Virus record (IMG/VR): IMGVR_UViG_3300037189_018699
Span: 1-39,617 of that record
DNA from: a virus
Length of the DNA stretch: 39,617 nucleotides
Direction: 5' to 3' (one strand)
Shown: piece by piece, positions 4,095-39,617 of the stretch
How the letters are laid out: every line of letters begins with the position of its first letter
How positions within the stretch are numbered: the stretch's first letter is position 1
The notes under the pieces: generated by a model
The model's database searches: none
The model's input: the letters and a program-made list of their open reading frames with translations, nothing else
Told to the model about the DNA's origin: nothing
Program-made: the position numbers and the translations under genes

Positions 4095-4105
4095 GGGTTA
4101 ATCAA

Positions 4106-5764
4106 TTGCCACGCGTTCCAAGCTACAACAAGCAAGTATCAGAACAAGCGATTAGAATTCCTAATGTAAGCACTCAAGCGCCTGCGGAATTATTTAATCT
4201 AGGTCGATCTTCTCAGGGGGTTGAGAATGCTGCGAATAATCTTCTCAAGACCACTGAGGCTTTTTATCAAGACCAAAAGAAGAGCGCGGATCAGATTGCT
4301 ATCCAAGACTATGATTCAAGTCTTTCAAGGCTTCAGTCGGATCTTACAAAGAAGGCTGAGACATTCCGAGGCAAGGATGCTGCGGGAGCTTTGCAGGCAG
4401 TCCAAGAAGAATGGGAAAAAGGACTGGCCGACTTAAACAAAGGTCTTACCAATACTGACCAGCAAATGATGGCAAAAAAGGCTGCTCAGAATCGGTATGA
4501 TTCTTTGTATCGATCTGTTGATACGTACTCGGCTGTTGAGCTGAAGAAGTACGAAAATGAATCGACTGAAAATTATATCAAGGTTCAAAAAGATTTGGCC
4601 GTACAGAACTATAAAGATCCTTTGGCTGTAGCTGACTCTACTCAGCGTCAAACGGATGCACTTAGGGAATATCAAAGGCGAAACGGCTTATCTGACGATT
4701 GGTTTACGGCTAAAAGTACAGAATCTATCAGCAAGACAAACACAGACATTGTCGCTCGAATGATTGATAACGGAGAGGATCTTTTGGCTAAGAAGTATTT
4801 CGAAGCCAACAAGGCCAGCTTTTCTGGAGAAGACATTGGAAAGGTAGAGAAGTTTGTTAGGGCCGGGTCTATACGTGGAGAATCTTTCCGAGTAGCGGAT
4901 CAGGTTTATAGATCTGGGAAGACCGGCCAAGAAGCTCTTGATGAAATTAGAAGAAGAGTTGGCACTGAAGATGTCGACTTATTTAAAGCGACCAAGGATC
5001 AATATAAAGAAATAGTAAATGAGCAGAAGGCTTACGCGGATCAGAAGAATTCTCAGACGCTAGAGTCTGCTTATGACACCTACATTTTAAAGAATAATGG
5101 GCCCATTCCTACGACTCTTTTGGAAGAGATGGATGCTGCAAATGCAGAGAAGCTTCAAAGCCTCTATGCAAATAAGGTTTCTGGTAAAACTACAGAGACA
5201 AATTGGGAGGTTTATTTTGATATTAAAAGTAAGCTTGCTAATCCTCGAACTAGAAATGAGATGCTTTCAAAAAGTCCTATTGAGTTCTTTGACTCTTTGG
5301 GAGCGACTGAGCGGAAAGAAGTTGTAAATCTTTGGACTGATGCAAAGAGCGGCAACACTCAAGAATTGAGTTTCTCTGAAGCAGAAGAGAAGTTAACTGC
5401 GGCTCTTTCAGAAAGTCTTGGTTTTAATAAAGAAAAATCATTGGCATTTAAGACTAATGTGCATTCTGCAATTCTCGCTAAAGAAGCTCAGCTTGGTCGA
5501 AGACTTGGTTACGAAGAAATGAATGCCGTTGTGAAGAGCCAAGCGACTGAGAGCGTTTTGGTTCCAGGAGCTATTTTTGGAACTAATGCCAGATTTCCGT
5601 TTGAAGTCACTATTGAAGATTATGATCTAGAGGATATTCCAGAAACAGACGTTGATTTAATTTCTGCGGCCATCCGTGCAGAAGGTGGAACTCCGACTAA
5701 GAAAAATGTTATCGAGCGTTATGTAAGACGCTTGCAACTAGAGGGATCTAATGTCCGAAAATAA
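4106..5764 (+). CDS. Internal virion protein, T7 gp15-like (ejection protein)
   Basis: A 552-residue, highly charged, almost entirely helical protein without cysteines in its first half and without a signal peptide. Its start is TTG at 4106, supported by AGGGG about 8 nt upstream and by the absence of a better in-frame ATG nearby. Early residues (RVPSYNKQVSEQAIRIPNVSTQAPAE) resemble the N-termini of podoviral core proteins such as gp15, a tubular periplasm-spanning ejectosome component. The assignment rests on gene order (gp14-like, this, then a giant gp16-like protein), helix content and length (T7 gp15 is about 750 aa, so this one is shorter). The next gene begins inside its last codons (14-bp overlap). 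Confidence 0.65.
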   Translation: MPRVPSYNKQVSEQAIRIPNVSTQAPAELFNLGRSSQGVENAANNLLKTTEAFYQDQKKSADQIAIQDYDSSLSRLQSDLTKKAETFRGKDAAGALQAVQEEWEKGLADLNKGLTNTDQQMMAKKAAQNRYDSLYRSVDTYSAVELKKYENESTENYIKVQKDLAVQNYKDPLAVADSTQRQTDALREYQRRNGLSDDWFTAKSTESISKTNTDIVARMIDNGEDLLAKKYFEANKASFSGEDIGKVEKFVRAGSIRGESFRVADQVYRSGKTGQEALDEIRRRVGTEDVDLFKATKDQYKEIVNEQKAYADQKNSQTLESAYDTYILKNNGPIPTTLLEEMDAANAEKLQSLYANKVSGKTTETNWEVYFDIKSKLANPRTRNEMLSKSPIEFFDSLGATERKEVVNLWTDAKSGNTQELSFSEAEEKLTAALSESLGFNKEKSLAFKTNVHSAILAKEAQLGRRLGYEEMNAVVKSQATESVLVPGAIFGTNARFPFEVTIEDYDLEDIPETDVDLISAAIRAEGGTPTKKNVIERYVRRLQLEGSNVRK

Positions 5765-8700
5765 TCCGTATTCAAGTGAGTCATTGGGTCTTGTTCCAGA
5801 ATCTCCTTCTGTAGTGAATAATCCGTATTCAAGTGAGGCTTTAGGCCAGACAGCGCCAAGCGCGCTTAAGCAGTCCATGTATGTTGGAGTGCAGAAGAAT
5901 CCTGACGAGTATGCGAAGGTTTTAAATATCGCAGACAAAATGAAGGTGCCTAGCGATTTAGTTGAATCGGATTATTCTGCGTTTAAGCAGGCTGAAGATC
6001 TTAAAAGTTTAGATCCAAGTACACTGCAAAGAAGCTTTCCTAAAATGTCTGCGTGGCTTGAGAATCCAGATAATGCTGGAATTGCGCATGACGATATTCT
6101 TACTTTAAAGCGGATGTCATCGGCAATTGAAGGATATTCTTTTGCTTCTGATTTATATAACAAGTTCAATTCTGGCATAGCGTCACTTGGAAAAAGTGTT
6201 GCGCAGATACCAGCGGCAGCAGGCCAGGCACTTGCGCTGCCTTACAACTTGGCGCTTGGCGCTCAAGGAGAGCTTACTGGGCGGCCCGATCTTTATGAGC
6301 CCTATAAGTTTCAGTATCCAAAAGAAGGCATCCTCTTGGACAACCCTGTTACTCGATATTTCGATCGCAGATCAAAAGAGTATGCAGAAATGGCTACTGA
6401 GAAAACCGTAAGCAATGAAGAGCTTTTTCAGTCCATAGAAGATGGAGACTACAAGACTGCGGGAAGACAGTTTGCTTATAAGCTTGTTGAAACTCTTCCA
6501 ACTACACTCGGAATTGTAGCAGGCTCTTTAGGTGGATATGGTACGGCAGCAGCAGCAATTGGAGCTGCTACCTCAGGAGCGCAGGCCAGTGCCGAAGGCC
6601 TTGAGGCTGGAGTTGGTCCAGTGGCTCAGACTACAAACGCAATTTCTAACGCAGCTTTTGAGTTTATCGGAGAGAAGATCTTCACGGTTTTACCTATTGA
6701 AGCGATTACGAAAAAGTATGGCCAAAGCGTTGCCAATGTTGTGTTTAAAGAGGCTGCCCTTGTGTTTGCAAAACAAGGTGTTTTGGAGGCCGCTGGAGAG
6801 GGTCTTACTCAGGCTGGGCAATCTGTTTCTAGTTATTTAACCGGGGTTAATCCGGGAGCGCTAGATACTTTAATGCAGGACATTTTAGTCTCTGCGTCTC
6901 TTGGCGGCGCTACTGGAGCCGGGATTAGTGCGCCAGGCGCAATTCTTACTGGGCTACAAAGCGTTGATAGAAAAGTAGATCGAGAGAGGCGAGCAAGTAA
7001 TTCTGCTGAGACTTACACAGAGATAGGTCAAGCCGCTGCCGAGTCTAAGCTTCGTCAAAGAAGTCCTGAGCGTTTTGAGAGTTACTTAGAAACGCAAACA
7101 AATGGCACAGAAAACGAGAGTATTTATATTTCGCCTGAGAGTTTTGAGACTTACTTTCAGTCGAAGGATGAAAATCCTTTAGAAGTTCTACAAAAGCTAG
7201 ACGCAATTGAGGCGTATGACACGGCCAAGGAAACTGGAACTGACATTAAGATTCCTACTTCGAAGTGGACGGCTAGGCTTAATCAAGAAGACTACAACGG
7301 CCTTAAGGATGACATTAAGTATCAGCCCGATCATTCGTCTGTAAATGAGACGAAACTTTTGCGTGAGGAAGTTCAGGCTGTAGCGGATGAAGCGCAAGCG
7401 CCTACTCCAGTCGAACAGTCTGCAGCAGAAGTGAAAAGGATTGTTAAGGAGCAGTTGATTGCTGCTGGCACTGATCCGACTGTTGCTGAAGAGCAAGCGA
7501 AGATCACAGAGTCTCGAGTTACTCAAAGAGCTAATCTTTTAGGAGTAGATCCACAAGAATTATATAAGAATCAGAATGTAACGATTCAGGCTGGGACGAC
7601 TCCAGCGATTACTACTCCAGAAGAGCACGTTTTAAATCAGGCTGAGATAATTGATTTTGGAGTATTTAAAAAACAGAAAGAACTTCAAAAAGAGTTGCAA
7701 GAAGAGGCCGCCTTAAGAGAGCCTTCAGAAACTCCACTTCCACCACTTGAAAGATTAAAAGCTAGATTTGGAAACGATAAAATAGCTCTTAAAGCTATTG
7801 ATAAAGCTCAAAAAAATAATGGAAGTTCTTACGTCGCAGATAAAAAAATTAAAGGACTTGGATTTGCTCCAAATTATTTAGCTGAGCCGACTGGAGTAAT
7901 TGGAAATCCAGAAATTCAAGGTCTGAATAACGACGGTAAAGACATTGATCCTCTTTCTTGGCTAGACAGCAAATATAAAGCCACTCAGCAGCTTATTCAA
8001 AAGCACGCAGAAAAAGGAATTCCACTTACAATTAACACGTCTAGCGATCTTATTGGAGCTAATGACTACATTGAATCTTTACCACAAGGCACGACTGTAA
8101 ATTTTTACGTCACTCCTGAAAATGGTGAGATTGTAAGAGACGGTTCTGCATTTAGTTTTAACAGAGAAGTTTTCAAAGCTTTGCCATCTAGGCAAAGACA
8201 ATTTATAGCCATTGAGAAGCTGAAAGAGGCTGGCGTTAATGTAAACATCATTGAACCTACAGCAGACAGCGTTATTCAATTCGCTGGTGGTATAAAAAAA
8301 TTATCTAAAACTCTTAATCTTTCTGAAGCCGAAGCAATGGCTGAAGTCAGAAAAGCTACAGACCCATTACTTTTAAAAAAGTTTGGAGATGAAAAACAAA
8401 CATTTTTTCAGAAGGATTCAGAAAATACGTTTAATGCTGTGACTCCAGAAGAGTTTATCAAGGCGAGAGATCAGAGCAAAAGAGCCCAGTTTTTAACTCC
8501 TTACACAGCTGAAGAGCTTAAAGATTATCAGCTCTTTCTAACCCCCGATGGCGTTGGTTATGCCCTGTCTCCAGACCTTGATATGATTGGGGTTTTTAAT
8601 AACTCGGATAAGCCTGGCGCAGCTCGTGAGGCGATTGTCGACGGAATCTCAAGAGGGGCCAAAACCCTTGATGCCCTAGATGGATTTTTACCTAAGTATT

Positions 8701-11700
8701 ACAATGGGTTCGGATTTGTAGAAGAAAAGCGCATTACTTGGGATGATAAATATGCTCCAAGAGGGTGGAATTATGAAAAATATGACCGACCAGACGTCGT
8801 CTTCCTTAAATATCCAGAATCTCTCTCCAGAGAACAAGGTGCGGTTAGATCGCGCACTGAGCTTGCTCGACGTCAACTTGGAGAATCTTCCGATCAAGGA
8901 AGACAATCTAATGTTTTTCCTGAACGGGACGGAAGAATTGATTGGGAAGAATGGGGAAGACTGGGTCAAGAAGAACAAGACGCGGCTCTTAGAAGAGCTG
9001 GAGTTAGTTCAGAACCAGTAATCGCTAATCAAGACGATTCTGGAAGCATCAAGGGTCAGATCCAACTTAGCAGAAATAAAAAGATAATCAGTCTTTTTAA
9101 GAGTGCAGATCCTTCAACATTCCTTCATGAATCAGGACATTTATACCTTGATGAAATTAAAGAAGACACGGAAGCGCTCAAAGCTAGAGACCCAGCTACC
9201 CTTACCCCCGCTCAATCCAGGTTTTTGGAAGACTCTCAGGCAATCTTGGATTTCTTGGATGTTAAATCTTTTGATGAAATTGGCGAGCCTCAGCAAGAGA
9301 AGTGGGCTCGTAGTTTTGAGCAGTATCTCATGGAAGGTAAAGCTCCTTCTCAAAAACTTAGGAAAGCTTTCAAGTCGTTTAAAAATTGGCTTACGAAGAT
9401 TTATAAATCGCTCGTTCCTGGCTCTCAAATAAATCCTGAGATTCGTGCGATCTTTGATCGCCTGTTAGCTTCTGAGCAAGAGATTGCAGATGCGCAAGCT
9501 GCTCAAAATCAAGCGCCTATTTTTACCACTCAAGAAGCGTCTGGAATGAATGACGAGCAGTGGGCCAAATATCAAGAAGCAGTTATGGAAGCGCGTCAGT
9601 TTGCAGAAGAGACAATCACAAATGAAGTGATGGAAGATCTTCGAAAGCGTCAACGTAAAGAATACAAAGAAAGACGCGCGCAAATTGAGAAACAAGCTAG
9701 GGCTGAGGCCAATGCTTCGCCTGTTTATAGAGCGCTTTCTATTTTGCAAAAAGGCGAGCTGCCTGACGGGTCGCCACTTCCAGAAGGCCAATATCCGATT
9801 AAGTTATCCAAGGCTGAAATAAATTCAGAATACATTTCTGGAGCGCCTAAAGGAATATTTAACGAGAAGACGGGCGTTCCAGCCGATATGGCTGCAGAGA
9901 TTTTAGGATTTCAAAGCGGGGATGATTTACTTCAGTCCATTTCAAACGCTGAGCCTAAAGAAGAATTCATCAAACGAATTACTGATGAAACCATGCAGTC
10001 TCTTTACCCGGACCTTTTAGGTACGCCTCAATTTTCTGAAGAAGCGATGAAAGCGGTTCATAATGATTCCCGCGAGCGTATGCTTCGTATGGAGCTTGAG
10101 CGCTTGGCAGAAGTAAATATGCCGCTCTTAAAGCAACTCGGGAAGCGGATTTCAAGACGCATTCCTTCTAAAGAAGCACTGCGCGCCCAAGCGATGGAAG
10201 TCATAGGAAAACAAAACGTAGGAGATATTTCTCCACGCGTTTATGAACTTGCAGAAAGAAAGCAGGCTAAGCTTGCTGGTGAATTATTCTTTAAAGGCGA
10301 TATAGCTGGAGCTTTTGAAGCTAAGAGAAAAGAAGCTTTGAATCACGCTCTTTATCGTGAAGCTGTAGAAGCGAGAGATTTAATCACGAAGTCTGCGAAA
10401 CAATTTCGCAAGATTTCCAGAATGACGGATGAGAAGGCTGTTAGTTTAAGAAGAGACTCTAATCTTGTTAATGCGGCCAAGTCGATTATTGCTAACTTTG
10501 GATTGGGTACGAAAACAGCAAAAACCGCTGAGCAGTATTTGAGTCCGATTAAGGCATATGATCCCGAGGCCTATGCGACTCTTAAGGATATGGTGGAGTC
10601 GGTTAATATTGACCCCACTCCTTACAAACAGCTTTCTTTTAACGAGTTTAAGCAGGTGTCTGAATCGGTTAATTCCTTGTGGGCTCTTTCTAAGTCGACT
10701 CAAGAAGTTTTCTTAGACGGCAAGAAGATCGATAAACAGGTCGCTCTCGATATGCTGCAGGCGCAGACTGACGAAGCCCTTAAGCTGAATGTTCAGAAGG
10801 ATAGAGAATACGACGAGACAATGTCTCGCTTGGATAGAATTAAAAACTTCGCGCTTTCTTATTTTTCTTGGACTCGGTCGGTTGAGTCTTGGGTCGACGC
10901 GATGGACCTGGGAGATATTAACGGCACATTTAGGAAGCTTATCTTTGACCCAGTTATTGAAGGAGTTGCGGCTTATAAGAAACAAAAGGCTGTTTACTCA
11001 AAGAGAGTCTTAGATATTTTGCAGCCAGTCTTAAAAGATACGTCTTTTAAAGAAATTATCGCGACCGAAAGACCCGGGAAGCCTTTTAAATTTAAAGGCA
11101 AACAAGAATTATTAGGCGCTCTCATGCACCGTGGAAATGACTCTAACTTCTCTAAGTTCATTCGCGGAGAAGGCTGGGGGGCATTTAATCCAGACGGCTC
11201 CCTAGACACTGCCGCATGGGATCAGTTTGAAGCTCGCATGCGAAGAGAGGGCGTGCTTACAAAGGCCGACTATGACGCTATTCAGCAGGTTTGGGATTTG
11301 TACGAAGAGCTAAAGCCAGAACTTCAAAAGGCTCATTATAAGCGCTATGGAAGATACTTTAATGAGGTGACGGCGAATTCGTTTACGAATGAGTTTGGCA
11401 CGTATCGAGGCGGTTATGCGCCCGCAAGAATCGACTCTCAAAGAGTTCAAAGACAGGAAATATTAGACGACAAGAATATAATGGAGCGTTTGAATAACTC
11501 TTACGCGTGGCCTACGACTGGGAGTGGTTCTACTCAAACGAGAAACGAAGAGTATGCGGCTCCTTTATTGCTGGACCTTAGGGCCATTAATTCCCACCTA
11601 GATTGGGCTCTTCGGTTTGCGCATCTTCAAAATCCAGTCATGGACGTAGCAAGGCTCGTTTACTCAGAAACTTTTGAGAAGATGATTGGTGCCTTTGATC

Positions 11701-12905
11701 CTAACGCAGTCAGAGAAATGCTTAAGCCTTGGCTGCAAAGATCGGCTCAGCAATTAGTCTCTGTTCCTTCTGACAACACTCTTATGAGAAGCATCGATTC
11801 TCTCTCAAAGTATGTTCGTCAATCTACGACAATGCAGTTTCTTTCTTTGAACATTATTAACGCGGCTCAGAACTTTACGGGTATTGGACCTGCTCTTTTA
11901 AAGGTAAAAGCAAAGTATCTAAAGAATGCTTTTGTCGCCTATGTGAAGCAGCCCAAAGCCTTTGCTGAGGAAATAGCTAATAAGTCTGACTTTATGTCGG
12001 ATCTTTTAAAGGAAGAAATTGCCGAGACCGCTGGAGAAATTGAGGCCCTTATCTCCGATCAAAAGGCCGTCGGAAAGGCGCAAGATCTTGCCAGACAGTT
12101 TGGCCAGGTTTTGCAAAGACTTACTCAAAACCAATTAAACGTCTTGGTTTGGAGTGGGGCGTACAATCAGTCGATAGACCAGGGCATGAGTGATAAGGAC
12201 GCAATTCGTTCGGCTGATTCAGCTGTACGCCAAACGCAAGCGGTAGGCGGTGCAGAGAATATGACTCGGCTGGAGACTTACACCGAGACAGCGAAGCTCA
12301 TAACGATGTTTACTCGCTACTTTATAAGCATGTTGAATTTAAACACCACTGAGGCGGTTAAGGTAAATCGCACCACTGTTGGGAAAATGGCCAAGACTCC
12401 CCTACTCATGAATATTTATTTACTTGGGTTTTTTGTTCCGTCCGTTGTGGCGGAAGGTATACGGCGGGGTCTTTCAGGAGATGACCTAGACGCAGACGAT
12501 GACGATGAATATTTGGATGACCTGGCAGATATATTTTTATTCTCTCAAGCGAGATTTGCAACGGCCATGATTCCCGGCGGGGGAACTGTGATCAATTCAG
12601 TTTTAAATTATTTTGACGACAAATATTATAATGACAGCATAACGGTTTCTCCAGCACTCAGCGCAGTGCAAAGCGCCGCAAGAGCGCCTAAAGATATTTA
12701 CGATATAGCCCTAGGGGAAGACGTTAAGAAGCAAGACGTCAGGGATATTTTAACATTAATGGGAATCGTTACGAAGCTGCCGCTTCTTCCGCTGGCTAGA
12801 CCGATAGGATATTTGATGGACGTCGAAAGTGGTAAGGCAGATCCGAGCGGACCAATTGATTTTACTCGTGGCCTAGTGACTGGAAAGTCAGGGGGCGGGC
12901 GTTGA
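5751..12905 (+). CDS. Giant internal virion protein, T7 gp16-like, with HEXXH metallopeptidase motif
   Basis: A 2384-residue protein, larger than T7 gp16 (about 1318 aa). It occupies the last slot of the ejection-protein set. The N-terminus carries NPYSSESLG and NPYSSEALG in duplicate, then a glycine/alanine-rich segment (residues about 245-345) with several hydrophobic helices that could insert in membranes. Around residues 940-1020 there is a domain of the phage large-polyvalent-protein kind (LTPDGVGYALSPD, ending GWNYEKYDRPDVVFLKYP). Next comes a zincin signature HESGH at 1126-1130, with E1190 in WARSFEQYL as a plausible third zinc ligand. The rest is long helices, and the C-terminus has a hydrophobic segment near residues 2220-2240. 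I see no lytic transglycosylase motif at the N-terminus, unlike T7 gp16. It probably enters the host with the DNA. Confidence 0.8.
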   Translation: MSENNPYSSESLGLVPESPSVVNNPYSSEALGQTAPSALKQSMYVGVQKNPDEYAKVLNIADKMKVPSDLVESDYSAFKQAEDLKSLDPSTLQRSFPKMSAWLENPDNAGIAHDDILTLKRMSSAIEGYSFASDLYNKFNSGIASLGKSVAQIPAAAGQALALPYNLALGAQGELTGRPDLYEPYKFQYPKEGILLDNPVTRYFDRRSKEYAEMATEKTVSNEELFQSIEDGDYKTAGRQFAYKLVETLPTTLGIVAGSLGGYGTAAAAIGAATSGAQASAEGLEAGVGPVAQTTNAISNAAFEFIGEKIFTVLPIEAITKKYGQSVANVVFKEAALVFAKQGVLEAAGEGLTQAGQSVSSYLTGVNPGALDTLMQDILVSASLGGATGAGISAPGAILTGLQSVDRKVDRERRASNSAETYTEIGQAAAESKLRQRSPERFESYLETQTNGTENESIYISPESFETYFQSKDENPLEVLQKLDAIEAYDTAKETGTDIKIPTSKWTARLNQEDYNGLKDDIKYQPDHSSVNETKLLREEVQAVADEAQAPTPVEQSAAEVKRIVKEQLIAAGTDPTVAEEQAKITESRVTQRANLLGVDPQELYKNQNVTIQAGTTPAITTPEEHVLNQAEIIDFGVFKKQKELQKELQEEAALREPSETPLPPLERLKARFGNDKIALKAIDKAQKNNGSSYVADKKIKGLGFAPNYLAEPTGVIGNPEIQGLNNDGKDIDPLSWLDSKYKATQQLIQKHAEKGIPLTINTSSDLIGANDYIESLPQGTTVNFYVTPENGEIVRDGSAFSFNREVFKALPSRQRQFIAIEKLKEAGVNVNIIEPTADSVIQFAGGIKKLSKTLNLSEAEAMAEVRKATDPLLLKKFGDEKQTFFQKDSENTFNAVTPEEFIKARDQSKRAQFLTPYTAEELKDYQLFLTPDGVGYALSPDLDMIGVFNNSDKPGAAREAIVDGISRGAKTLDALDGFLPKYYNGFGFVEEKRITWDDKYAPRGWNYEKYDRPDVVFLKYPESLSREQGAVRSRTELARRQLGESSDQGRQSNVFPERDGRIDWEEWGRLGQEEQDAALRRAGVSSEPVIANQDDSGSIKGQIQLSRNKKIISLFKSADPSTFLHESGHLYLDEIKEDTEALKARDPATLTPAQSRFLEDSQAILDFLDVKSFDEIGEPQQEKWARSFEQYLMEGKAPSQKLRKAFKSFKNWLTKIYKSLVPGSQINPEIRAIFDRLLASEQEIADAQAAQNQAPIFTTQEASGMNDEQWAKYQEAVMEARQFAEETITNEVMEDLRKRQRKEYKERRAQIEKQARAEANASPVYRALSILQKGELPDGSPLPEGQYPIKLSKAEINSEYISGAPKGIFNEKTGVPADMAAEILGFQSGDDLLQSISNAEPKEEFIKRITDETMQSLYPDLLGTPQFSEEAMKAVHNDSRERMLRMELERLAEVNMPLLKQLGKRISRRIPSKEALRAQAMEVIGKQNVGDISPRVYELAERKQAKLAGELFFKGDIAGAFEAKRKEALNHALYREAVEARDLITKSAKQFRKISRMTDEKAVSLRRDSNLVNAAKSIIANFGLGTKTAKTAEQYLSPIKAYDPEAYATLKDMVESVNIDPTPYKQLSFNEFKQVSESVNSLWALSKSTQEVFLDGKKIDKQVALDMLQAQTDEALKLNVQKDREYDETMSRLDRIKNFALSYFSWTRSVESWVDAMDLGDINGTFRKLIFDPVIEGVAAYKKQKAVYSKRVLDILQPVLKDTSFKEIIATERPGKPFKFKGKQELLGALMHRGNDSNFSKFIRGEGWGAFNPDGSLDTAAWDQFEARMRREGVLTKADYDAIQQVWDLYEELKPELQKAHYKRYGRYFNEVTANSFTNEFGTYRGGYAPARIDSQRVQRQEILDDKNIMERLNNSYAWPTTGSGSTQTRNEEYAAPLLLDLRAINSHLDWALRFAHLQNPVMDVARLVYSETFEKMIGAFDPNAVREMLKPWLQRSAQQLVSVPSDNTLMRSIDSLSKYVRQSTTMQFLSLNIINAAQNFTGIGPALLKVKAKYLKNAFVAYVKQPKAFAEEIANKSDFMSDLLKEEIAETAGEIEALISDQKAVGKAQDLARQFGQVLQRLTQNQLNVLVWSGAYNQSIDQGMSDKDAIRSADSAVRQTQAVGGAENMTRLETYTETAKLITMFTRYFISMLNLNTTEAVKVNRTTVGKMAKTPLLMNIYLLGFFVPSVVAEGIRRGLSGDDLDADDDDEYLDDLADIFLFSQARFATAMIPGGGTVINSVLNYFDDKYYNDSITVSPALSAVQSAARAPKDIYDIALGEDVKKQDVRDILTLMGIVTKLPLLPLARPIGYLMDVESGKADPSGPIDFTRGLVTGKSGGGR
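5760..5837 (+). repeat. Pair of 21-bp perfect direct repeats at the start of the gp16-like gene
   Basis: The bases at 5760-5780 and 5817-5837 are identical over 21 bp and start 57 bp apart, in the same reading frame. Each encodes the peptide NNPYSSE, continuing SLG or ALG. The nucleotide identity suggests a recent small duplication, but keeping two NPY-x-LG peptides may also be functional, for example as a docking motif for a core partner. Confidence 0.8.
8773..9021 (+). CDS. Possible overlapping gene inside the gp16-like gene (+1 frame)
   Basis: An 82-residue frame lies entirely inside the giant internal virion gene. Its ATG at 8773 follows a GGGTGG site 5 nt upstream. The product begins MKNMTDQTSSSLNIQN and has convincing protein character: amphipathic helices and segments such as KVRLDRALSLLDVNLENLP and GEDWVKKNKTRLLEELELV. 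The main frame over the same stretch is an Arg/Glu/Gly/Ser-rich linker between the large-polyvalent-type domain and the HESGH metallopeptidase, where sequence constraint should be low. That makes a second coding use plausible. The alternatives are a chance frame, or an ancestral frame captured by a shift. There is no recognised family and no transcription evidence. Confidence 0.45.
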   Translation: MKNMTDQTSSSLNIQNLSPENKVRLDRALSLLDVNLENLPIKEDNLMFFLNGTEELIGKNGEDWVKKNKTRLLEELELVQNQ

Positions 12906-13320: not shown

Positions 13321-14997
13321 ATGAGCATTACAAACACAACTAGCGTGAATCAGTATGTAGGTAACAATACGACGGCAACGTATTCATACACGTTCAAAAT
13401 TTTCTTAGCCTCAGATCTTGTTGTTATTCAAACCAATGTTTCTACAGGGGTTGATACGACGCTGGTTTTAAATACTGATTACACCGTAACGGGCGTACAG
13501 GTGAATACGGGCGGGTCGATTACTCTTACGGCTGGGAATCTAGCGACTGGCCAAAACCTGACTATCTCGAGAGTTCAGCCACTTACTCAGCTTACAGAGT
13601 TTAGAAATCAGTCTGAGTATTTTGCTGAGCTTCATGAGAACGCTTTCGACAAGCTCACAATGATTACTCAGCAGCAGCAAGACGATTTAGATCGAACCTT
13701 GAGAGTTCCTGAGAGTGTTGATTTAACGACTGTCGATACGACTATCGCTCCACCAGCCCCGACGACTTTGTTTGGATGGAACGCGGCAGCAGATGCGGTC
13801 ATTGGCTATACTCCTGACGACATTGTTAATGCTGGCTCGATTGGTACTTTTACAGCAAACCGCGCGCTTGTTTCAAATGCTGGTGGGGTGATTACAGCTT
13901 CTACAGTGACATCAACTGAGGTTGGATATTTAACAGGGCTGACTCAAAACATTACAAGTCTTGTCGCTCAGGCCGACACTTCGCCTGGAACTTTTAACAT
14001 TGGCGTTCGTTTAGCTTCTGGCACGTTCACTGTATGCGGGGCTGATGGAGCTAACTTGTCTGCATCTAACCCAGGCTATGTGGTCATAGGATCGCAAGCC
14101 AACCCTGGGCGATTGGTTCGCTTAACACTTACAGCAAATCAAAGCTTCAATGACGATTCGTTTGCTGGAACTAGCGACATTGCTGGTGAAGAGTTTGGAA
14201 CAAAACCAGCGGTTGCTTGGTCAAATGATAGGCCGTTCTTTTTGTATGCTGTGAATAGAGATGATACGGCAGGAAATTTGCTTTTTGGAATAAGTCCTAA
14301 TCCGACAATGACAGCGTCTCCCAGCTCAACAAACTTAATAGGTTACAAGCTAACTCCATCTGTAACCCCTAGTGATTCAAGTATTTGGTTATTTGGGTCG
14401 TCATTAACAACCTCGAACTATACGTCTCGGCCTGTTTTGCGAATCGGTGGAATTAGAATGCGAAAGGCTGTTACAACGGATGACTGGACCGTACAAACAT
14501 TGTCCACAAACGACGGCATACGTCCAAGCAACTATGAAGGTATTAATTTTTTATGGAGTGCTGGAGAAGCTCTTTTCACTGCTGCAGGACGATATTTCGC
14601 CAGCTCTGGAAGCCCGAGCTGGGCCACGCCAGCCAGCATTAACGCATTTTATAAAATACAGATGAGCGGATATATACACCTTTGGTTTGATACGACTGCG
14701 GCTGGTCTTTGTACTAACGGCTCTAACGGCAGCACTTTAGAAATTGGCTTACCAATGCTAGCGCTACCGCTGGTTGGATTTGTAAGCGTTGCCGGATTTA
14801 CGGGAGGGGCAATTAACCGAATTGCCGGGTCTTCGGCTATTCCAACAGTCGCGTATATTGACACAAGCGCCTCTAACTCAATTGCCTTTTTTACATCCGC
14901 AACAGCCTCAACAGCAATAGCCAACAACTCTTTATCAAACACAGCCGACGACCTTCGAGTTGTCGGATTTATGTATCCGGCATTTGGAAACTCTTAA
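13321..14997 (+). CDS. Tail fibre with T7 gp17-like virion-binding N-terminus
   Basis: A 558-residue protein. Residues 1 to about 140 match the T7-type tail fibre attachment domain: SVNQYVGNNTTATYSYTFKI, then TDYTVTGV, then ITLTAGNLATGQNLTISR and the trimer-forming NAFDKLTMITQQQQDDLDR. The C-terminal 400 residues are Thr/Ser/Ala/Gly-rich beta structure without a recognised enzyme motif, and are presumably the receptor-binding part. The start ATG follows AGAGGGG in a 135-bp gap after the antisense membrane gene, so this gene may open a separate tail-fibre and lysis transcript. Length is close to T7 gp17 (553 aa). Confidence 0.85.
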   Translation: MSITNTTSVNQYVGNNTTATYSYTFKIFLASDLVVIQTNVSTGVDTTLVLNTDYTVTGVQVNTGGSITLTAGNLATGQNLTISRVQPLTQLTEFRNQSEYFAELHENAFDKLTMITQQQQDDLDRTLRVPESVDLTTVDTTIAPPAPTTLFGWNAAADAVIGYTPDDIVNAGSIGTFTANRALVSNAGGVITASTVTSTEVGYLTGLTQNITSLVAQADTSPGTFNIGVRLASGTFTVCGADGANLSASNPGYVVIGSQANPGRLVRLTLTANQSFNDDSFAGTSDIAGEEFGTKPAVAWSNDRPFFLYAVNRDDTAGNLLFGISPNPTMTASPSSTNLIGYKLTPSVTPSDSSIWLFGSSLTTSNYTSRPVLRIGGIRMRKAVTTDDWTVQTLSTNDGIRPSNYEGINFLWSAGEALFTAAGRYFASSGSPSWATPASINAFYKIQMSGYIHLWFDTTAAGLCTNGSNGSTLEIGLPMLALPLVGFVSVAGFTGGAINRIAGSSAIPTVAYIDTSASNSIAFFTSATASTAIANNSLSNTADDLRVVGFMYPAFGNS

Positions 14998-17036: not shown

Positions 17037-17462
17037 TTAATCGATAGAGGGGCACCAATCGGTATCAGGCTTATGGCCGCCGTCATATGAAATTGCTAAT
17101 CTTTTTTTAATAAGCACTTGGCTTAAGGAGTTAGAATCAAAGATGACGTCTGCTAAAAGTCTGAAGTATTTATCGCGGCCCACATTCACAAGATCGATTC
17201 TATTGGCTGAGAGAAGTAACTGACGGACTAAGTTTCTGGCTTTAACTGCGGCTTCTATTTCGCATTCTGTTTTGCCTTTGATTTCTGGTGTATCTATTCC
17301 GCGTACTCTGACTGAGATGTTTTTACCGAATACGTTAGGCACGCTTGGCAGGTTAACTGTGAGAGTGTCTCCGTCGTAAGCGCTAACGAAATCCACATTG
17401 TGAAATGGCTCGGATTTGCTTGAGCATCCAATAAGTATAAACAAAAATAGTAGTCGCTTCAT
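17037..17462 (-). CDS. Thermonuclease-family lipoprotein (staphylococcal nuclease fold)
   Basis: A 141-residue protein with a lipoprotein signal MKRLLFLFILIGC (lipobox LIGC, Cys13), so the mature enzyme should be tethered in the periplasm or outer membrane. The catalytic domain has the SNase order: DGDTLTV, then VRVRGIDTPEIKG, then RDKYFRLLADVIF, and LIKKRLAISYDGG near the end. The Arg/Glu/Arg catalytic triad is present: Arg in VRVRG eight residues before Glu of DTPE, and Arg in KYFRLL. It needs calcium and cuts DNA or RNA without sequence preference. A cell-envelope nuclease in a phage could degrade incoming competitor DNA or scavenge nucleotides. AGGG lies about 7 nt before the ATG. Confidence 0.85.
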   Translation of the reverse strand: MKRLLFLFILIGCSSKSEPFHNVDFVSAYDGDTLTVNLPSVPNVFGKNISVRVRGIDTPEIKGKTECEIEAAVKARNLVRQLLLSANRIDLVNVGRDKYFRLLADVIFDSNSLSQVLIKKRLAISYDGGHKPDTDWCPSID

Positions 17463-31601: not shown

Positions 31602-33357
31602 CAATTCTAAAGGCGCTGGTGTTTATCCTCTTACGGCTCTCACCAAGCGGCAGCAATATGAGCTGATTCGAAATCAACTAGAACTCGATCGTTCGAGTTT
31701 TATTTCTCACTGGCAGGATATTTCTCGATTTGTTTCTCCTAGGCGCGCTCGGTTCGAAGTCTCTGACGTGAACAAGGGCGATCGAAGAAACCAATCGATT
31801 ATTGATGGAACAGCAACGCTTGCCCTTCGCACTTTGCAGGCTGGAATGATGTCCGGCATAACGCCTCCTTCTCGAGAGTGGTTTCGTTTAACCATTAAAG
31901 ACTTGGATCTTTCCGAGTACAACCCGGTGAAGGACTGGCTTTACGAAGTCACCAAGCGAATGTCGACGGTGTTCTTCAAATCGAATTTGTACAAAGTTCT
32001 CCCTCTTACTTACGGCAACATGGGGAACTATGCGACGGCTGGAGTATTTTTAGAGCCGGACATTGATACGACTGTAAGGTTCACGGCTTTACCGCTTGGT
32101 AGTTTTTCGATTTCAAATAATCAGCGAATGATTGTTGATACGATGACGCGCACTTTTATGATGACGGTGCGTCAGATTGTAGAGAAGTTCGGGGTTAATC
32201 CAGAAACGAGAGAGATTGATTGGACGAATATATCTACTTACGTGCGCGGTCTTTGGAATACTGGAAATACGGAGCAGTGGGTACAGGTCGCGCATATTAT
32301 CAAGCCGAATCCTGACTATGACCCGGAAAAGCTGCAGTCTAAGTATAAAAAGTTTTTGAGTTGTTACTACGAAAGTGGAGTGCAACTGCGCGGCGGCGGG
32401 AATTATTTATCTGGCCCAATGATGGAGCCTGAGAAGTTTTTATCTCAAAAAGGATATGATTTCTTTCCAGGCTTGTTTCCACGCTGGGAGTTAAACGGAG
32501 AAGATTCTTACGGGACGGATTGTCCTGGAATGGTAGCGCTTGGGGATGTTCGTCAGTTGCAAGCAACCGAGCGTCGAATTGCGCAGGCGCTTGAGAAGAT
32601 AGTCGCGCCGCCCATGAAAGGGCCGACCAGTCTTCGTGGAACTAAAGCGACTTTAATTCCAGGAGGAATTACTTACACGGATACGTCGACAGGTGGGACT
32701 CCGTTTAGTCCTGCGATTCAAGTGGACCCAAGAGTTTTTGAAATTGAAGGAAAGCAGAATCAGGTAAGACAGAGAATTGAGCAGGCTTATTTTGTAGATC
32801 TGTTTCAGAGTATGCTTCGAAATGATCGCGACATTACTGCGACTGAAGCGAGACTTGCGGATAACGAGCGGCTGAGCACGCTTGGCCCGGTGCTAGAGCA
32901 ATTCAATGACGACTTCTTAGATCCACTCATCGATAACGTGTTTAACATCATGGTTGAGGCTGGTCAGATTCCCCCTCCACCGCCTGAGCTTGAGGGTCAG
33001 GATTTATCAGTCGATTACATTTCTATTTTTGCGCAGGCGCAGAAGCTTTTGAATGTTGGAGGCATAGAGCGCTTTACTGGCTTTGCTTTGCAAGTAGCGA
33101 ACGTGAATCCTGCAGCGCTTCAGAAGGTGGATACGGATCAGCTTCTAGATGTTTACGGAGAGATGACTGGGCTTGCGCCTGGGATTATTCGAAGCGATGA
33201 CGCTGTTGCAGAGATTCGTGCGGCTCAGGCTCAAGCGCAGCAAGCGCAGAATCAGTTGCAAGCGATTCAGTCTTTGTCTCAGTCGGCGAAAAACTTAGCG
33301 CAGTCTTCTACTGACGGAGACAATGCGTTGACCGCTCTCACAGGTGGACCCGTATGA
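31594..33357 (+). CDS. Portal (head-to-tail connector) protein, T7 gp8-type
   Basis: A 587-residue protein. The opening is typical of podoviral portals: LTKRQQYELIRNQLELDRSS, WQDISRFVSPRRARFEVSDV, GDRRNQSIIDGTATLALRTL, QAGMMSGITPPSREWFRL. Later motifs include VAPPMKGPTSLRG, QRIEQAYFVDLFQSMLRNDR and ITATEARLADNERLSTLGPV. The C-terminus is Gln/Ala-rich and would sit in the capsid. It starts at GTG 31594 with AAAGGA about 9 nt upstream. Twelve copies form the ring at one vertex through which DNA enters and leaves. The next gene begins in an ATGA overlap. Confidence 0.92.
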   Translation: MADNSKGAGVYPLTALTKRQQYELIRNQLELDRSSFISHWQDISRFVSPRRARFEVSDVNKGDRRNQSIIDGTATLALRTLQAGMMSGITPPSREWFRLTIKDLDLSEYNPVKDWLYEVTKRMSTVFFKSNLYKVLPLTYGNMGNYATAGVFLEPDIDTTVRFTALPLGSFSISNNQRMIVDTMTRTFMMTVRQIVEKFGVNPETREIDWTNISTYVRGLWNTGNTEQWVQVAHIIKPNPDYDPEKLQSKYKKFLSCYYESGVQLRGGGNYLSGPMMEPEKFLSQKGYDFFPGLFPRWELNGEDSYGTDCPGMVALGDVRQLQATERRIAQALEKIVAPPMKGPTSLRGTKATLIPGGITYTDTSTGGTPFSPAIQVDPRVFEIEGKQNQVRQRIEQAYFVDLFQSMLRNDRDITATEARLADNERLSTLGPVLEQFNDDFLDPLIDNVFNIMVEAGQIPPPPPELEGQDLSVDYISIFAQAQKLLNVGGIERFTGFALQVANVNPAALQKVDTDQLLDVYGEMTGLAPGIIRSDDAVAEIRAAQAQAQQAQNQLQAIQSLSQSAKNLAQSSTDGDNALTALTGGPV

Positions 33358-33797
33358 AAAGGATTTGGGACAAGGTAGAAAAATCAGATTCATGTTGGAA
33401 TTGGACCGCCGCTAAAAATAAAAAAGGTTACGGCCTTTTGAATACAAAAATTAGCAAATCTACATTAGCTCACAGGGTTATCTGGGAATTGATAAATGGA
33501 GAAATTCCTAAGGGAATGCTCGTTTGTCATCACTGCGACAATCCATCGTGCGTCAATCCAGGCCATTTATTTTTAGGAACGAATGATGACAATATGCTGG
33601 ATAGAAAATTAAAGGGCAGAAACATTTTATTTTCTGGGTCTTTAAATTCAAAAGCAAAACTAACAGAAGAAGACGTTGCTAGTATTAGGGTCAAAAGATC
33701 TCAAGGGATTAAGAATATTGATCTAGCTAAAGAGTACGGCGTTAGTAGCCAGCTAATTACTCGAATTACTCAGCGAACCACATGGAGACATGTTTAA
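33354..33797 (+). CDS. HNH homing-type endonuclease with helix-turn-helix tail
   Basis: A 147-residue protein. The HNH motif is clear: LAHRVIWELINGEIPKGMLV, CHHCDNPSCVNPGHLFLGTN (catalytic His with zinc-binding cysteines) and DDNMLDRKLKGR. The C-terminal part LTEEDVASIRVKRSQGIKNI, DLAKEYGVSSQLITRITQ is a helix-turn-helix used for site recognition. It is placed between portal and the Bbp19-like gene with 4- and 8-bp overlaps. HNH genes in such positions are usually selfish free-standing homing endonucleases rather than head components, although some take part in packaging. Its codon use looks AT-richer than the portal gene's. Confidence 0.85.
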   Translation: MKRIWDKVEKSDSCWNWTAAKNKKGYGLLNTKISKSTLAHRVIWELINGEIPKGMLVCHHCDNPSCVNPGHLFLGTNDDNMLDRKLKGRNILFSGSLNSKAKLTEEDVASIRVKRSQGIKNIDLAKEYGVSSQLITRITQRTTWRHV

Positions 33798-36164: not shown

Positions 36165-36407
36165 ATGATACGTGTAAAAGCAATGGCACTAGGGTTTTAC
36201 GACAATCGGCGAAGACGAAAAGGTGAAGTTTTCGAAATCAAAGACGAGTCCGAAATGGGCAAGTGGATGAAGAAGATGAAGCCTGAGGTTAAGGTCTCTG
36301 AATTTTTAGAAGAGGAAGATGAAGCGCCTTTAAAAAAGCGCGGTCGACCGGCTAAGAAATTAGAGGAAGAGACTTCTGTCGCAACTTTAGACGAAGACGT
36401 CATTTAG
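36165..36407 (+). CDS. Small structural protein with charged linker
   Basis: An 80-residue protein. The N-terminus, MIRVKAMALGFYDNRRRRKG and EVFEIKDESEMGKWMKKM, is the pattern of small proteins that follow capsid genes in many phages. The rest is a Lys/Glu/Asp linker with KKRGRPAKK, ending LDEDVI. Its last 16 coding bases (36390-36405) are identical to the end of the RHH protein gene. AGGAG lies upstream. It is the last gene before the terminator, and function is unknown. Confidence 0.7.
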   Translation: MIRVKAMALGFYDNRRRRKGEVFEIKDESEMGKWMKKMKPEVKVSEFLEEEDEAPLKKRGRPAKKLEEETSVATLDEDVI

Positions 36408-36453: not shown

Positions 36454-36813
36454 ATGGCAACACGAACAGCAGTCGTTACAACAATAAACGACTTTGAGAA
36501 TGCAGCTCTTTTATTTACATGGAGCGGGCTTTTATTAACAGACGATGGAAACCCAGTGACGATTCCTGGATATTCAGATCGATCTATTCAGTTTCAAGGA
36601 ACTTTTGGAGTGGGTGGAACGATTCAGATTGAAGGATCAAACGACGGTACGAACTATCAGGTTTTGACTGATCCACAAGGTAACGCGATTTCAAAAACTT
36701 CTGCCTCGATTGAGGCAATTACGGAGTTACCAAGATTTATTCGGCCTCGAATTACGGGTGGGGATGGAACTACAAACTTGGTCGCATCACTTTTTATGAA
36801 GAGGGTCGCATGA
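36454..36813 (+). CDS. Putative decoration / virion surface protein
   Basis: A 119-residue beta-sandwich-like protein: MATRTAVVTTINDFENAALL, RSIQFQGTFGVGGTIQIEG, SNDGTNYQVLTDPQGNAISK, PRFIRPRITGGDGTTNLVAS. The SNDGTNY motif and the F/I-RP-xITGG motif are typical of phage Ig-like or galactose-binding-like surface proteins that occur between capsid and adaptor genes. I cannot assign an exact family. AAGGGG lies 8 nt before ATG 36454, just after the terminator, so it may begin a new transcript. Confidence 0.65.
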   Translation: MATRTAVVTTINDFENAALLFTWSGLLLTDDGNPVTIPGYSDRSIQFQGTFGVGGTIQIEGSNDGTNYQVLTDPQGNAISKTSASIEAITELPRFIRPRITGGDGTTNLVASLFMKRVA

Positions 36814-37295
36814 GTAGCGCAAGTAAAGCAGCAGAGGATCTAAAGACTTTTGCCAATCGATTGAAGCCAATGATGGATTGTGCTGCAGCTTTGGAAGAAA
36901 TTGGAAATTTAGAAAATGCGGCTTCTGAAGCGAAGATTCGCAAAGATTCTTTATACAAAGAGGCGGATGAGGCTTCAAAAGCTTTAGATCAAAAGAAGCT
37001 TGAGATTAAGAAAGCAGAAGAGGCGATTGATTCGGCTCATAAAGAAGCTAAAAATATTGAGTCTTCTACGAAGATCAAGATTGATGCGGCTTTGAAGGCT
37101 GCGGCTGAAAAGGCTTTTAATTTAGTAAAAGAAGCAGAAGATAAAGTTGCTTCAATTAAAAGCGAGCTTGCTCAGTCTTACGATGAGTTGAATCAAGTGA
37201 AGTATCAGACTCAAGAGACCAAGGCTCATCTTGAGAAGATTAAGAAAGAATTGTCACTTACTGGCGAAAGAGTTCTAGCGCTTAGTAACGTATAA
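36810..37295 (+). CDS. Coiled-coil protein, possible virion component or anchor
   Basis: A 161-residue protein that is nearly a continuous coiled coil from residue 25 to 150: rich in Lys, Glu and Ala with heptads, no Pro, no Trp. A short N-terminal part reads MSSASKAAEDLKTFANRL. It starts in an ATGA overlap with the decoration-like gene. Long rods of this type serve as fibre shafts, scaffolds or tethers. Its position right before two exposed-type protein modules suggests a structural link, but no family is recognised. Confidence 0.65.
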   Translation: MSSASKAAEDLKTFANRLKPMMDCAAALEEIGNLENAASEAKIRKDSLYKEADEASKALDQKKLEIKKAEEAIDSAHKEAKNIESSTKIKIDAALKAAAEKAFNLVKEAEDKVASIKSELAQSYDELNQVKYQTQETKAHLEKIKKELSLTGERVLALSNV

Positions 37296-37299
37296 TTTT

Positions 37300-38175
37300 A
37301 TGAGACGACGCCGAAAGAGACTAGACGCTACGATTGGTCAGGCCACTCTTTTTGCGGTTGGTCCGTATGCTGGGTTAACCGCTCCATCAAGGACATCACT
37401 TCCTAACGGCGTTAATATAAGCCAGACATTTGGCTCTGAACAAACTCGCACGAATCCAATCAAGTATAACAATATCAGTATCAACTCTCTTTATGCAGAT
37501 TGGTACACTTGGGATGCTATTTTTCTTTGGGCCGATACGGTTAGTTTTCAGTCTGGTGGCGGCATTGTCAGTGTCATAGGAATTAACTCCGTCGACGAAT
37601 CTCCTGGAGTTGGCGGCTCTGGAGGCGGTGGTTACGGAAGTTTTTTTGGGGGGACCGGTGGCAATGGAGACACTGGTCAAAGCGGGTTTGGCGCGCCATT
37701 TATTGCGGGTGGTTTTGGAAGTGGACGACTCTACCAGGATTTTACCTACAATGGGTTTCCAATCGGAGGTCAGGGAGGTCAGGCTTTTGGGTCCGGCGCC
37801 GCTGATGGTGGAGCTGGAATTTCTGGAGCCGGGGGCGGTGGAGGCGGTGCAGACGACGGAGGCACGACAAACTCTCCTGGAGCTGGCGGGGCTGGATTAT
37901 TTTGCTCTGTATCTAGAATTTTCTTAGGCGCTAATGGATTTATTTATGCATACGGCGGCGAGTCCGAGACTCTTCGAGGCGGCGGTGGAGGCGGAGGCAG
38001 TATTGAAATTACTGCGCAAAAATACGACGGCCTCTTAACGGTTTTTGTTAACGGAGGCATTGCACAATTGGGAGGCGCTGGATCTTCGGGTAACGCGGCA
38101 ATTTTTGAATTAAGTAGAGACGGAAGAACTAGGACGTTAAGAGCGTTCAATCAATCTTGGGACAATACAAATTAG
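37300..38175 (+). CDS. Glycine-rich exposed protein (adhesin-like), module 1
   Basis: A 291-residue protein starting with a basic patch MRRRRKRLD. The middle (residues 105-225) has multiple glycine-rich stretches (GVGGSGGGGYGSFFGGTGG, GAGISGAGGGGGGADDGG, LRGGGGGGGSIEI) alternating with variable hydrophobic loops. Glycine-rich motifs separated by variable loops occur in T-even gp38-type adhesins, which bind host receptors. No enzyme motif. No ribosome site is obvious before ATG 37300. It is followed by a small gene that has a paralogue after the next large gene, so this is the first of two similar modules. Confidence 0.6.
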   Translation: MRRRRKRLDATIGQATLFAVGPYAGLTAPSRTSLPNGVNISQTFGSEQTRTNPIKYNNISINSLYADWYTWDAIFLWADTVSFQSGGGIVSVIGINSVDESPGVGGSGGGGYGSFFGGTGGNGDTGQSGFGAPFIAGGFGSGRLYQDFTYNGFPIGGQGGQAFGSGAADGGAGISGAGGGGGGADDGGTTNSPGAGGAGLFCSVSRIFLGANGFIYAYGGESETLRGGGGGGGSIEITAQKYDGLLTVFVNGGIAQLGGAGSSGNAAIFELSRDGRTRTLRAFNQSWDNTN

Positions 38176-38183
38176 GGGAAAAT

Positions 38184-38387
38184 ATGGAAGCAGTAAAATT
38201 ACAGGCGAGTTTCGCGACGAGTGGAATTAGCGTTGAACTTCAGAAAGATGCACAAAACAATTTCTATTTAGTCATGAGTGGTGGAGCTTTAACAGAGCCG
38301 ATGCCGATTCAATGCAGTTTGATGGAACTTCAGAAGCTTTCTAGAATTTTAAATATATCAGCCAGCTTCATTCAGTCTTCGATTTAA
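38184..38387 (+). CDS. Small module protein A (paralogue of 39230-39439)
   Basis: A 67-residue protein, MEAVKLQASFATSGISVELQ at the start and KLSRILNISASFIQSSI at the end. GGGGA 5 nt before ATG 38184 fixes the start; a longer frame from 38157 would overlap the adhesin-like gene. It aligns along its whole length with the 69-residue protein at 39230-39439, sharing ME, F-TSG, QKD, P-P, SL-E-KL-ILN and AS-I at matching places (about a third identical). It may be a trimerising or docking partner of the preceding large protein. Confidence 0.7.
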   Translation: MEAVKLQASFATSGISVELQKDAQNNFYLVMSGGALTEPMPIQCSLMELQKLSRILNISASFIQSSI

Positions 38388-38390
38388 TCA

Positions 38391-39230
38391 ATGAGAATAA
38401 GGCGCAAAAGATCTGACCTGAACTCGTTCGCTTACGACCCGGACGCTTTGGCCTATTTTGCTTTTGCCAATATTCCTTTTGACGCTTTTGACTGGGGAAT
38501 AAGAAACAATGTTTTCTTAGGACTAAAAGGAAAAATAGACTCTGTTGGTAAATCTAATATTTGGGACAAGATAGGTTTTTTAGCTATTTTTGATCCGTAT
38601 GATTATTATTCTTTTATAACGGACTGTAAAAATTTAGTCGTCATGAGCGACTACGGAGTGTCATTAGATGTCGACGGCTGTACTTTTGATGGGACTGCAT
38701 ATTTAGAAACACTTTATACTCCACCGGATTATCCAGTCCCAAACATTAACAACGCAGACGTTTGTGTGAGTTGGAATAATCCATATCAGACAATCGCTCC
38801 ATCTGGATCGCCAGCAGCGATTTACGGAGTGCGTGGCGGGGCTGGAGACTATTTTTCAACAAAAGTTATTAATACAGGTTTTGGTTTTCGGGGTGAGTAT
38901 TCTACTTTTTCTGTGAATACAGCCGACACTAATCCAGATGGATTTCTTGGCCGTTGGTGTTTTGCTAGGCGAGGCACAGATTCAGGCTTAATTGGAGAGC
39001 TTCAAATGAACGGAGCTGTTTATACAAAGCCTCAGTCGCCAACGAGTGATTTTAATTCAAACCCTATTTATTTAGGCGGCATAAATGATTCTGGTTCAAT
39101 GACCCAAGGGATTAAGAGTTATACGCTTAATTGGTTTTGTATTTCTCAGGAGCTTACTTACGACGAATTGGGTCAGGCTTCTATTGTAATGTCTAATTGG
39201 AACGATAATTTTGGAAGGACGAGTTTATAA
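38391..39230 (+). CDS. Exposed protein with LamG/ConA-like lectin-type C-terminus, module 2
   Basis: A 279-residue protein that also begins with a basic patch, MRIRRKRSDL, like the first module's large protein. The C-terminal half has the pattern of a concanavalin-A-like/laminin-G sheet: FLGRWCFARRGTDSGLIGEL, QMNGAVYTKPQSPTSDF, NPIYLGGINDSGSMTQGI, LNWFCISQELTYDELGQASI, ending NDNFGR. Such domains bind sugars or proteins in phage head and tail fibres. No strong ribosome site at ATG 38391; its stop overlaps the next start (TAATG). Function is inferred as surface binding. Confidence 0.6.
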   Translation: MRIRRKRSDLNSFAYDPDALAYFAFANIPFDAFDWGIRNNVFLGLKGKIDSVGKSNIWDKIGFLAIFDPYDYYSFITDCKNLVVMSDYGVSLDVDGCTFDGTAYLETLYTPPDYPVPNINNADVCVSWNNPYQTIAPSGSPAAIYGVRGGAGDYFSTKVINTGFGFRGEYSTFSVNTADTNPDGFLGRWCFARRGTDSGLIGELQMNGAVYTKPQSPTSDFNSNPIYLGGINDSGSMTQGIKSYTLNWFCISQELTYDELGQASIVMSNWNDNFGRTSL

Positions 39231-39439
39231 TGGAAACGCTATCTATAAAGCACACTTTTGTTACGAGTGGCGCAACGCTTCAAATTCAAAAAGATGAGCT
39301 TGGAAAAGTTTTCATCACTTTGACACTGCCTGGCTCGGAAGTTCCTGTTCCTTTGGAGACTTCTTTAGGAGAAATTGGCAAGCTAGTTCAGATACTAAAT
39401 TTGGGGGCTTCAGCAATAAGAATCATGGGGATCAATTAA
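39230..39439 (+). CDS. Small module protein B (paralogue of 38184-38387)
   Basis: A 69-residue protein, METLSIKHTFVTSGATLQIQ at the start and LVQILNLGASAIRIMGIN at the end. It overlaps the preceding stop (TAATG) with AAGGA about 10 nt upstream. The full-length similarity to small module protein A shows that a two-gene unit has been duplicated in tandem, with the large partner replaced or diverged beyond recognition. It ends 2 nt before the adaptor GTG. Confidence 0.7.
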   Translation: METLSIKHTFVTSGATLQIQKDELGKVFITLTLPGSEVPVPLETSLGEIGKLVQILNLGASAIRIMGIN

Positions 39440-39441
39440 AA

Positions 39442-39617
39442 GTGGCATCTAATACAGACATAGCAAATCTTGCGCTCCTGCATTTGGGTTTTGGTAAGAC
39501 GATTCAAAACCTAGACACGGAGCGGACTGCAGAAGCAAACGCTTGCCGAATATTTTACGACAACGCGCTTGAGATTATTCTCTGCAATTTTGATTGGCCT
39601 TTTGCCGGGAAGAAAGC
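39442..39617 (+). CDS. Head-to-tail adaptor (T7 gp11-like), N-terminal part, truncated by window edge
   Basis: The first 58 residues of an adaptor protein, starting at GTG 39442 with GGGGA 10 nt upstream. VASNTDIANLALLHLGFGKT, then ETERTAEANACRIFYDNALE-like text (here DTERTAEANACRIFYDNALE) and FDWPFAGKK, is the diagnostic N-terminus of this family. The frame runs off the window end with two bases of the next codon. The C-terminal part is at 1-333, and the two fragments do not overlap, so a short middle segment is missing. Confidence 0.88.
   Translation, partial: MASNTDIANLALLHLGFGKTIQNLDTERTAEANACRIFYDNALEIILCNFDWPFAGKK

Follow-up and report, generated by a model that had tools for sequence, protein, structure and literature searches.

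Two pairs of genes, each formed by a large and a small ORF, occupy 2.14 kb just ahead of the adaptor gene in the viral DNA analyzed here, and the two large proteins begin with nearly the same basic peptide. What do these genes encode, and how did they come to lie at this place? The stretch studied, called the window below, is a 39.6-kb viral record (39,617 nucleotides) whose two ends both fall within the adaptor gene (TTPA).

Genomic setting and organization of the two units

Based on Pfam profile searches, the MCP matches GP7 (PF20911, 2.7e-124), the cement protein matches Bbp16 (PF21190, 2.4e-22) and the portal matches Head-tail_con (PF12236, 1.5e-138). Judged by these capsid, cement and portal families, the phage is of the epsilon15/BPP-1 podophage type. 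Its genes follow the order portal, HNH-like ORF, scaffold region, MCP, cement, an 80-aa gene, b119, a 161-aa coiled coil, L1, S1, L2, S2, adaptor, nozzle, ejection proteins and tail fibre. The HNH-like endonuclease ORF (window 33354-33797), recognized from a sequence motif, lies between the portal and scaffold-region genes. The gene of about 80 aa located 3' of cement (window 36165-36407) shows a conserved acidic-VI C-terminus (DEDVI, DDDEVI, SDLDVI, GDDVI) and has homologues in loci L004, L007, L009, L011 and L014. A metalloprotease-like HESGH motif was noticed in a 2384-aa ORF (window 5751-12905), and a minus-strand ORF at window 17037-17462 is lipoprotein-like, with a staphylococcal-nuclease-type resemblance by eye.

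A second contig of 9.6 kb (L002, IMG/VR 3300033062_001512) joins the two window ends, which are adjacent in the genome with 154 bases missing between them; it is identical to the window before this gap and differs at 10 positions in 1550 bases after it. The adaptor gene, which starts at a GTG codon, is intact in L002 (220 aa). Since L002 also carries L1, S1, L2 and S2 at 100% identity, the four-gene arrangement cannot be put down to faulty assembly of a single record.

Table 1. Window coordinates of the two large-plus-small units and of the genes bordering them
Feature	Position	Strand	Remarks
b119, 119-aa conserved flank gene marking the cassette in relatives	36454..36813	+	relatives in aligned loci, identity 34-74%
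161-aa coiled-coil gene, left border of cargo site	36810..37295	+	homologues at same place in relatives
L1, glycine-rich large protein of unit 1, 291 aa	37300..38175	+	ORF; 24% Gly, pI 5.1
L1 basic N-terminal tag MRRRRKR	37300..37320	+	aligns with L2 tag, 7/9 residues
S1, small partner of unit 1, 67 aa	38184..38387	+	paralogue of S2
L2, large protein of unit 2, 279 aa, possibly ConA-like	38391..39230	+	ORF; pI 4.5; best-scoring ORF for KFNLK-family profile
L2 basic N-terminal tag MRIRRKR	38391..38411	+	aligns with L1 tag, 7/9 residues
S2, small partner of unit 2, 69 aa	39230..39439	+	1-base overlap with L2 stop
Adaptor gene (TTPA, phrog_394), right border of cargo site	39442..39617, resuming at window 1-333 after 154-base gap	+	phrog_394 match of window-start part

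All four ORFs were found where a preliminary description had placed them, between the capsid and adaptor genes, but their immediate upstream neighbour is the gene of the coiled coil, the fourth one after that of the capsid protein. The spacings along coiled coil, L1, S1, L2, S2 and adaptor are 4, 8, 3, -1 and 2 bases, and L1-S1-L2-S2 therefore form a tight operon in which each small gene lies directly downstream of, and coupled to, its large gene (+8 for L1/S1, -1 for L2/S2). The length of S1 is counted from ATG; if translation began instead at a TTG located 27 bases further upstream, the protein would have 76 aa. S1 is not a frameshifted part of L1, as the frames end in clean stops and have start sites of their own.

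The two small genes were confirmed as paralogues (BLASTP E 1e-14, 34% identity over 64 aa, ungapped), with a local score of 111 as compared with 22.7 +/- 4.3 in 1000 shuffles. The family expected around them in other phages did not appear: relatives of S1 or S2 were absent from 50,697 phage records, from 39 related records, from the ORFs of 160 loci and, beyond the identical L002 copy, from viral contigs, so that these proteins are not a widespread common adaptor. Neither gave a significant Pfam or PHROG match, and hence none to known tail fibre chaperone families. An AlphaFold model of S1 shows a bbbb-alpha fold with moderate confidence (pLDDT 73), whose likeness to the PUR/PC4-type nucleic-acid-binding fold is non-significant in Foldseek (E 0.12) and reaches a Z of 4.9, up to 5.1, in VIA, with unrelated folds tied.

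The first nine residues of the large proteins are MRRRRKRLD in L1 and MRIRRKRSD in L2, which gives the common form MRxRRKRxD, and nothing detectable follows: residues 9-60 are without similarity (818 of 1000 shuffles do at least as well, and BLASTP finds nothing). The proposal of a shared basic start followed by differing remainders holds in both its parts. The tags are encoded by ATG AGA CGA CGC CGA AAG AGA in L1 and ATG AGA ATA AGG CGC AAA AGA in L2. Several of the common Arg and Lys residues use different synonymous codons, which argues for selection on the peptide or an independent origin and not for recent DNA copying. The tag was also considered as an N-terminal signal peptide and rejected, as no hydrophobic stretch comes after it.

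Similarity searches with the large proteins were mostly negative. L1 had no match in Pfam, PHROG or phage searches and none to Gly_rich_2 (PF21722) despite its glycine content; the protein of a relative (L141) matches this family weakly, with an E of 0.0028 that is below the cut-off. Besides the identical copy in L002, no relatives of L1 or L2 were obtained in phage and viral-contig searches. PDB sequence searches with L1, L2 and S gave nothing useful, and hhalign of L1 and L2 against other cargo profiles gave nothing.

The description of L2 as LamG/ConA-like found no backing in domain searches, as L2 had no PDB match and matched no Pfam model, including the ConA-like ones, at E up to 1, whereas three other cargo proteins do match Laminin_G_3. 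A single-sequence AlphaFold prediction (pLDDT 28.6) was too low for a usable model. What weakly supports the assignment is a resemblance to the KFNLK family, a group of large and abundant phage proteins that contain the motif KFNLK[DN]P (loci L170-L249, for example L176:1455-2198) and may be ConA-like according to annotations; neither Pfam nor PDB gave a match for this family. With the profile of this family, L2 ranked at the top of 14,842 ORFs with a collinear match of 13.0 bits (E 0.064; 500 shuffles reached 6.3 bits at most), and hhalign gave E values of 0.0016 and 0.0026.

The KFNLK family resembles the units in architecture as well, since its proteins of about 280 aa have a variable N-terminal leader and are followed by a small gene. 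A gene of 50-100 aa lies behind 69 of 72 KFNLK genes and overlaps 55 of them, 37 by 4 bases and 18 by 1 base, which makes a large binding protein with a small coupled partner a recurrent design, seen here in phages unrelated to ours. Several leaders (e.g. repeated GWGxGAxNN) are common to different members, and the small genes have a consensus-like sequence LTxEQxxxLxGxxYxxDSYFNPIQDxNxNWIISxEE that belongs to no Pfam or PHROG family. However, the leaders are basic in 0 of 81 proteins, the C-terminal tag described below is present in 0 of 81, and no relationship of the partner to S1/S2 could be detected (profile scores of 0.5 and -2.1 bits; hhalign P 0.09 over 11 columns).

A variable cargo site in related phages

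Using b119 as bait, 179 relatives were found in viral contigs and 80 loci were kept; a b119 prophage search in bacterial genomes returned two MAG fragments only. Extra genes between the coiled coil and the adaptor are the rule, being held by 28 of the 31 distinct loci in which b119 and the adaptor are both present. In the nearest relatives, L004, L005 (MCP 88%) and L084 (b119 73%), the coiled coil is directly followed by the adaptor, and because the site is empty in them the two units are either an insertion or were lost in the L004/L005/L084 line. Among 36 cargo proteins of the site, members of unrelated families were recognized, including Laminin_G_3 (three proteins), Kelch, BNR/Sortilin, BppL_N, Gly_rich_2 and Rib. 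Several match PHROGs annotated as tail fibre or virion structural, and in a deposited relative (MW202742.1) the site gene is annotated as pectate lyase. Two cargo proteins, the tagged one of L112 and the LamG one of L144, had no match in named phages. In its sequence pattern this is what a home for exchangeable binding proteins would look like. In another locus (L101:4311-6854), b119 and the coiled-coil cassette lie behind a capsid gene not looking like GP7, and the cassette may thus move between capsid types.

The place of the site, adjoining the adaptor gene, could mirror attachment at the neck or tail. L1 and L2 would then be extra tail-side receptor-binding proteins, small fibres on the adaptor or nozzle, with S1 and S2 as their fibre chaperones, and the matches of some cargo to PHROG tail fibre families agree with this, as does the fact that small chaperone genes behind fibres are well known (PMC7289586, PMC10579305). 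The phage, however, encodes its main tail fibre, whose N-terminal domain is the usual one (phrog_1640), separately from the site at window 13321-14997. Its nearest relatives do without any cargo, so that the cargo is not essential, and we consider the tail-side arrangement rather unlikely. The fibre and chaperone pairs of Alteromonas phages V22 and A5 (PMC7289586, PMC10579305) are similar in that a large binding protein is followed by a small dedicated gene and the pairs are swapped between phages. S1 and S2 differ from those chaperones in being 67-69 aa long, in having no Pfam or PHROG family and in lying at the head-adaptor boundary of a phage with a separate tail fibre.

Arginine-rich ends of the site proteins

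Cargo proteins with unrelated bodies often have Arg-rich ends in the relatives, such as ..DWIIRARRRRRR, ..EWIVSARRRSRR and ..FIRRRRR. When a tag was defined as at least five K/R, including at least four R, and no D/E in the last ten residues, it was carried by 16 of the 187 site genes, and none of the 678 other genes on the forward strand of these loci had it (Fisher p 1.4e-11, a value to be read knowing that we fixed the rule only once the pattern had been noticed, that the loci are related and that the gene calls are mechanical). Arg-rich terminal peptides are confined to the site. By their unrelated bodies, the 20 tagged proteins (45 to 718 aa) can be sorted into about 16 groups; six of the proteins have in common a longer ending, [DE][WY]I[IVM]xxRxRxRR. 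The deposited gene calls of MW202742.1 include two site proteins ending in ..AARRRKD and ..FIRRRRD. Roughly half of the cargo loci are without a tag (e.g. L009, L029 and L086).

The MRxRRKR start had been regarded as a common tag. Its N-terminal form occurs only in this phage, relatives bearing the basic peptide C-terminally, and the DNA pattern ATG-MGN-NNN-MGN-MGN-AAR-MGN was present in none of the unrelated loci among 289 examined. One Gly-rich protein (L015) is an exception among the relatives, with a looser basic start, MRAVLQRKRRLYSNNDFRR, read from a TTG at position 12017 of that locus. We assume here that the N-terminal tag of L1 and L2 is equivalent to the C-terminal one of the relatives. 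Seen in this light, the swappable display system suggested earlier survives in its outline, with a site that in relatives is empty or filled with exchangeable binding-type cargo and a basic terminal peptide that recurs on unrelated cargo; its specific parts, the small-partner family and the N-terminal MRxRRKR, were seen only in this phage among the collections searched. C-terminal tags were also considered as sortase-like sorting signals and discarded, because mostly no membrane segment precedes them and the tag is N-terminal in this phage.

Could the tags be incidental? The N-terminal Arg and Lys residues could stem from the context of codons or of the translation start, and the Arg runs at the C-terminus could be by-products of the Shine-Dalgarno sequence (AGGAGG) of the next gene. 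Some tag Arg codons do double as a Shine-Dalgarno site, the tags of L126, L144 and L148 end in a plausible one, and AGG/AGA make up 37% of Arg codons in tags versus 20% in bodies. Yet 63% of the tag Arg codons are CGN, the tags of L154, L156 and L150 are wholly CGN, none of the 678 other genes is tagged though these also precede Shine-Dalgarno sites, and L1 and L2 encode the same residues by synonymous codons, which together leave this explanation very improbable.

Arg-rich terminal arms often bind nucleic acid. The peptides could accordingly bind packaged DNA, and L1, L2 and the tagged cargo would then be internal proteins, of the core or ejected, instead of surface adhesins; the weak and non-significant PUR-like score of the S model points the same way. 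The cargo bodies, however, are typical surface or carbohydrate-binding folds, the ejection proteins are encoded elsewhere (window 3501-12905), and the C-terminal tag is found in no gene outside the site. An internal location is for these reasons unlikely, somewhat less so than an incidental origin of the tags.

A putative display system and its known counterparts

The reading that we prefer, with a probability of about one half, is that the 2.14-kb segment is an accessory insertion of two units encoding tagged, probably virion-displayed binding proteins with small coupled partners. Placed in a cargo site that is hypervariable in epsilon15/BPP-1-type podophages, the two units would be products of duplication and divergence, each comprising a large binding protein, probably exposed on the virion, and its small translationally coupled partner. 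The Arg-rich tag would most likely be a portable docking peptide that fixes the following body onto the particle, in the head, cement or neck region, and S1 and S2 would most likely be cognate assembly or stabilising factors, each for its own large protein. Beside the main tail fibre, multivalent contacts of low affinity, with glycans or surfaces, would come from L1 and L2. A broader and less probable proposal is that a short Arg-rich terminal peptide at either end serves as a general docking signal, and that environmental podophages of a large group use it to hold exchangeable binding proteins, unrelated to one another, on the virion. This would be a natural form of phage display with an attachment tag of its own. 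Publications describing an arginine tag for docking in phage virions did not turn up in a literature search.

The vertex protein P2_50 of Vibrio phage Peru-2 is an Ig-like accessory head decoration that helps adsorption (PMC13320782, where Fraser et al. 2006 is cited for accessory capsid decoration with Ig-like domains). Such Ig-like capsid or vertex decorations are comparable to the units described here in being dispensable and exchangeable modules of short-tailed phages with proposed low-affinity auxiliary contacts. They differ in that the bodies here are Gly-rich or possibly ConA-like and are each accompanied by a basic terminal tag and a paralogous small partner. The shell of BPP-1 contains two abundant proteins, the MCP and a jellyroll cement (PMC3863775), and the MCP, cement and portal families of our phage belong to this BPP-1/epsilon15 capsid system. 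In contrast, the BPP-1-like relatives examined (Caulobacter phage BL94, MW202640) are without large cargo at this place.

Unrelated adhesins of this kind are known as accessories on phage heads, and how they are mounted is rarely known. Exchangeable accessory phage adhesins are not new, then, and what the present genes appear to add is an unexpected mounting signal, which we propose from their sequences. As the tag is found on unrelated bodies at one genomic site, the mounting rule is testable through a few residues on a non-essential protein. If the tag is a true docking signal, it would provide a sequence signature for display proteins without recognisable homologues.
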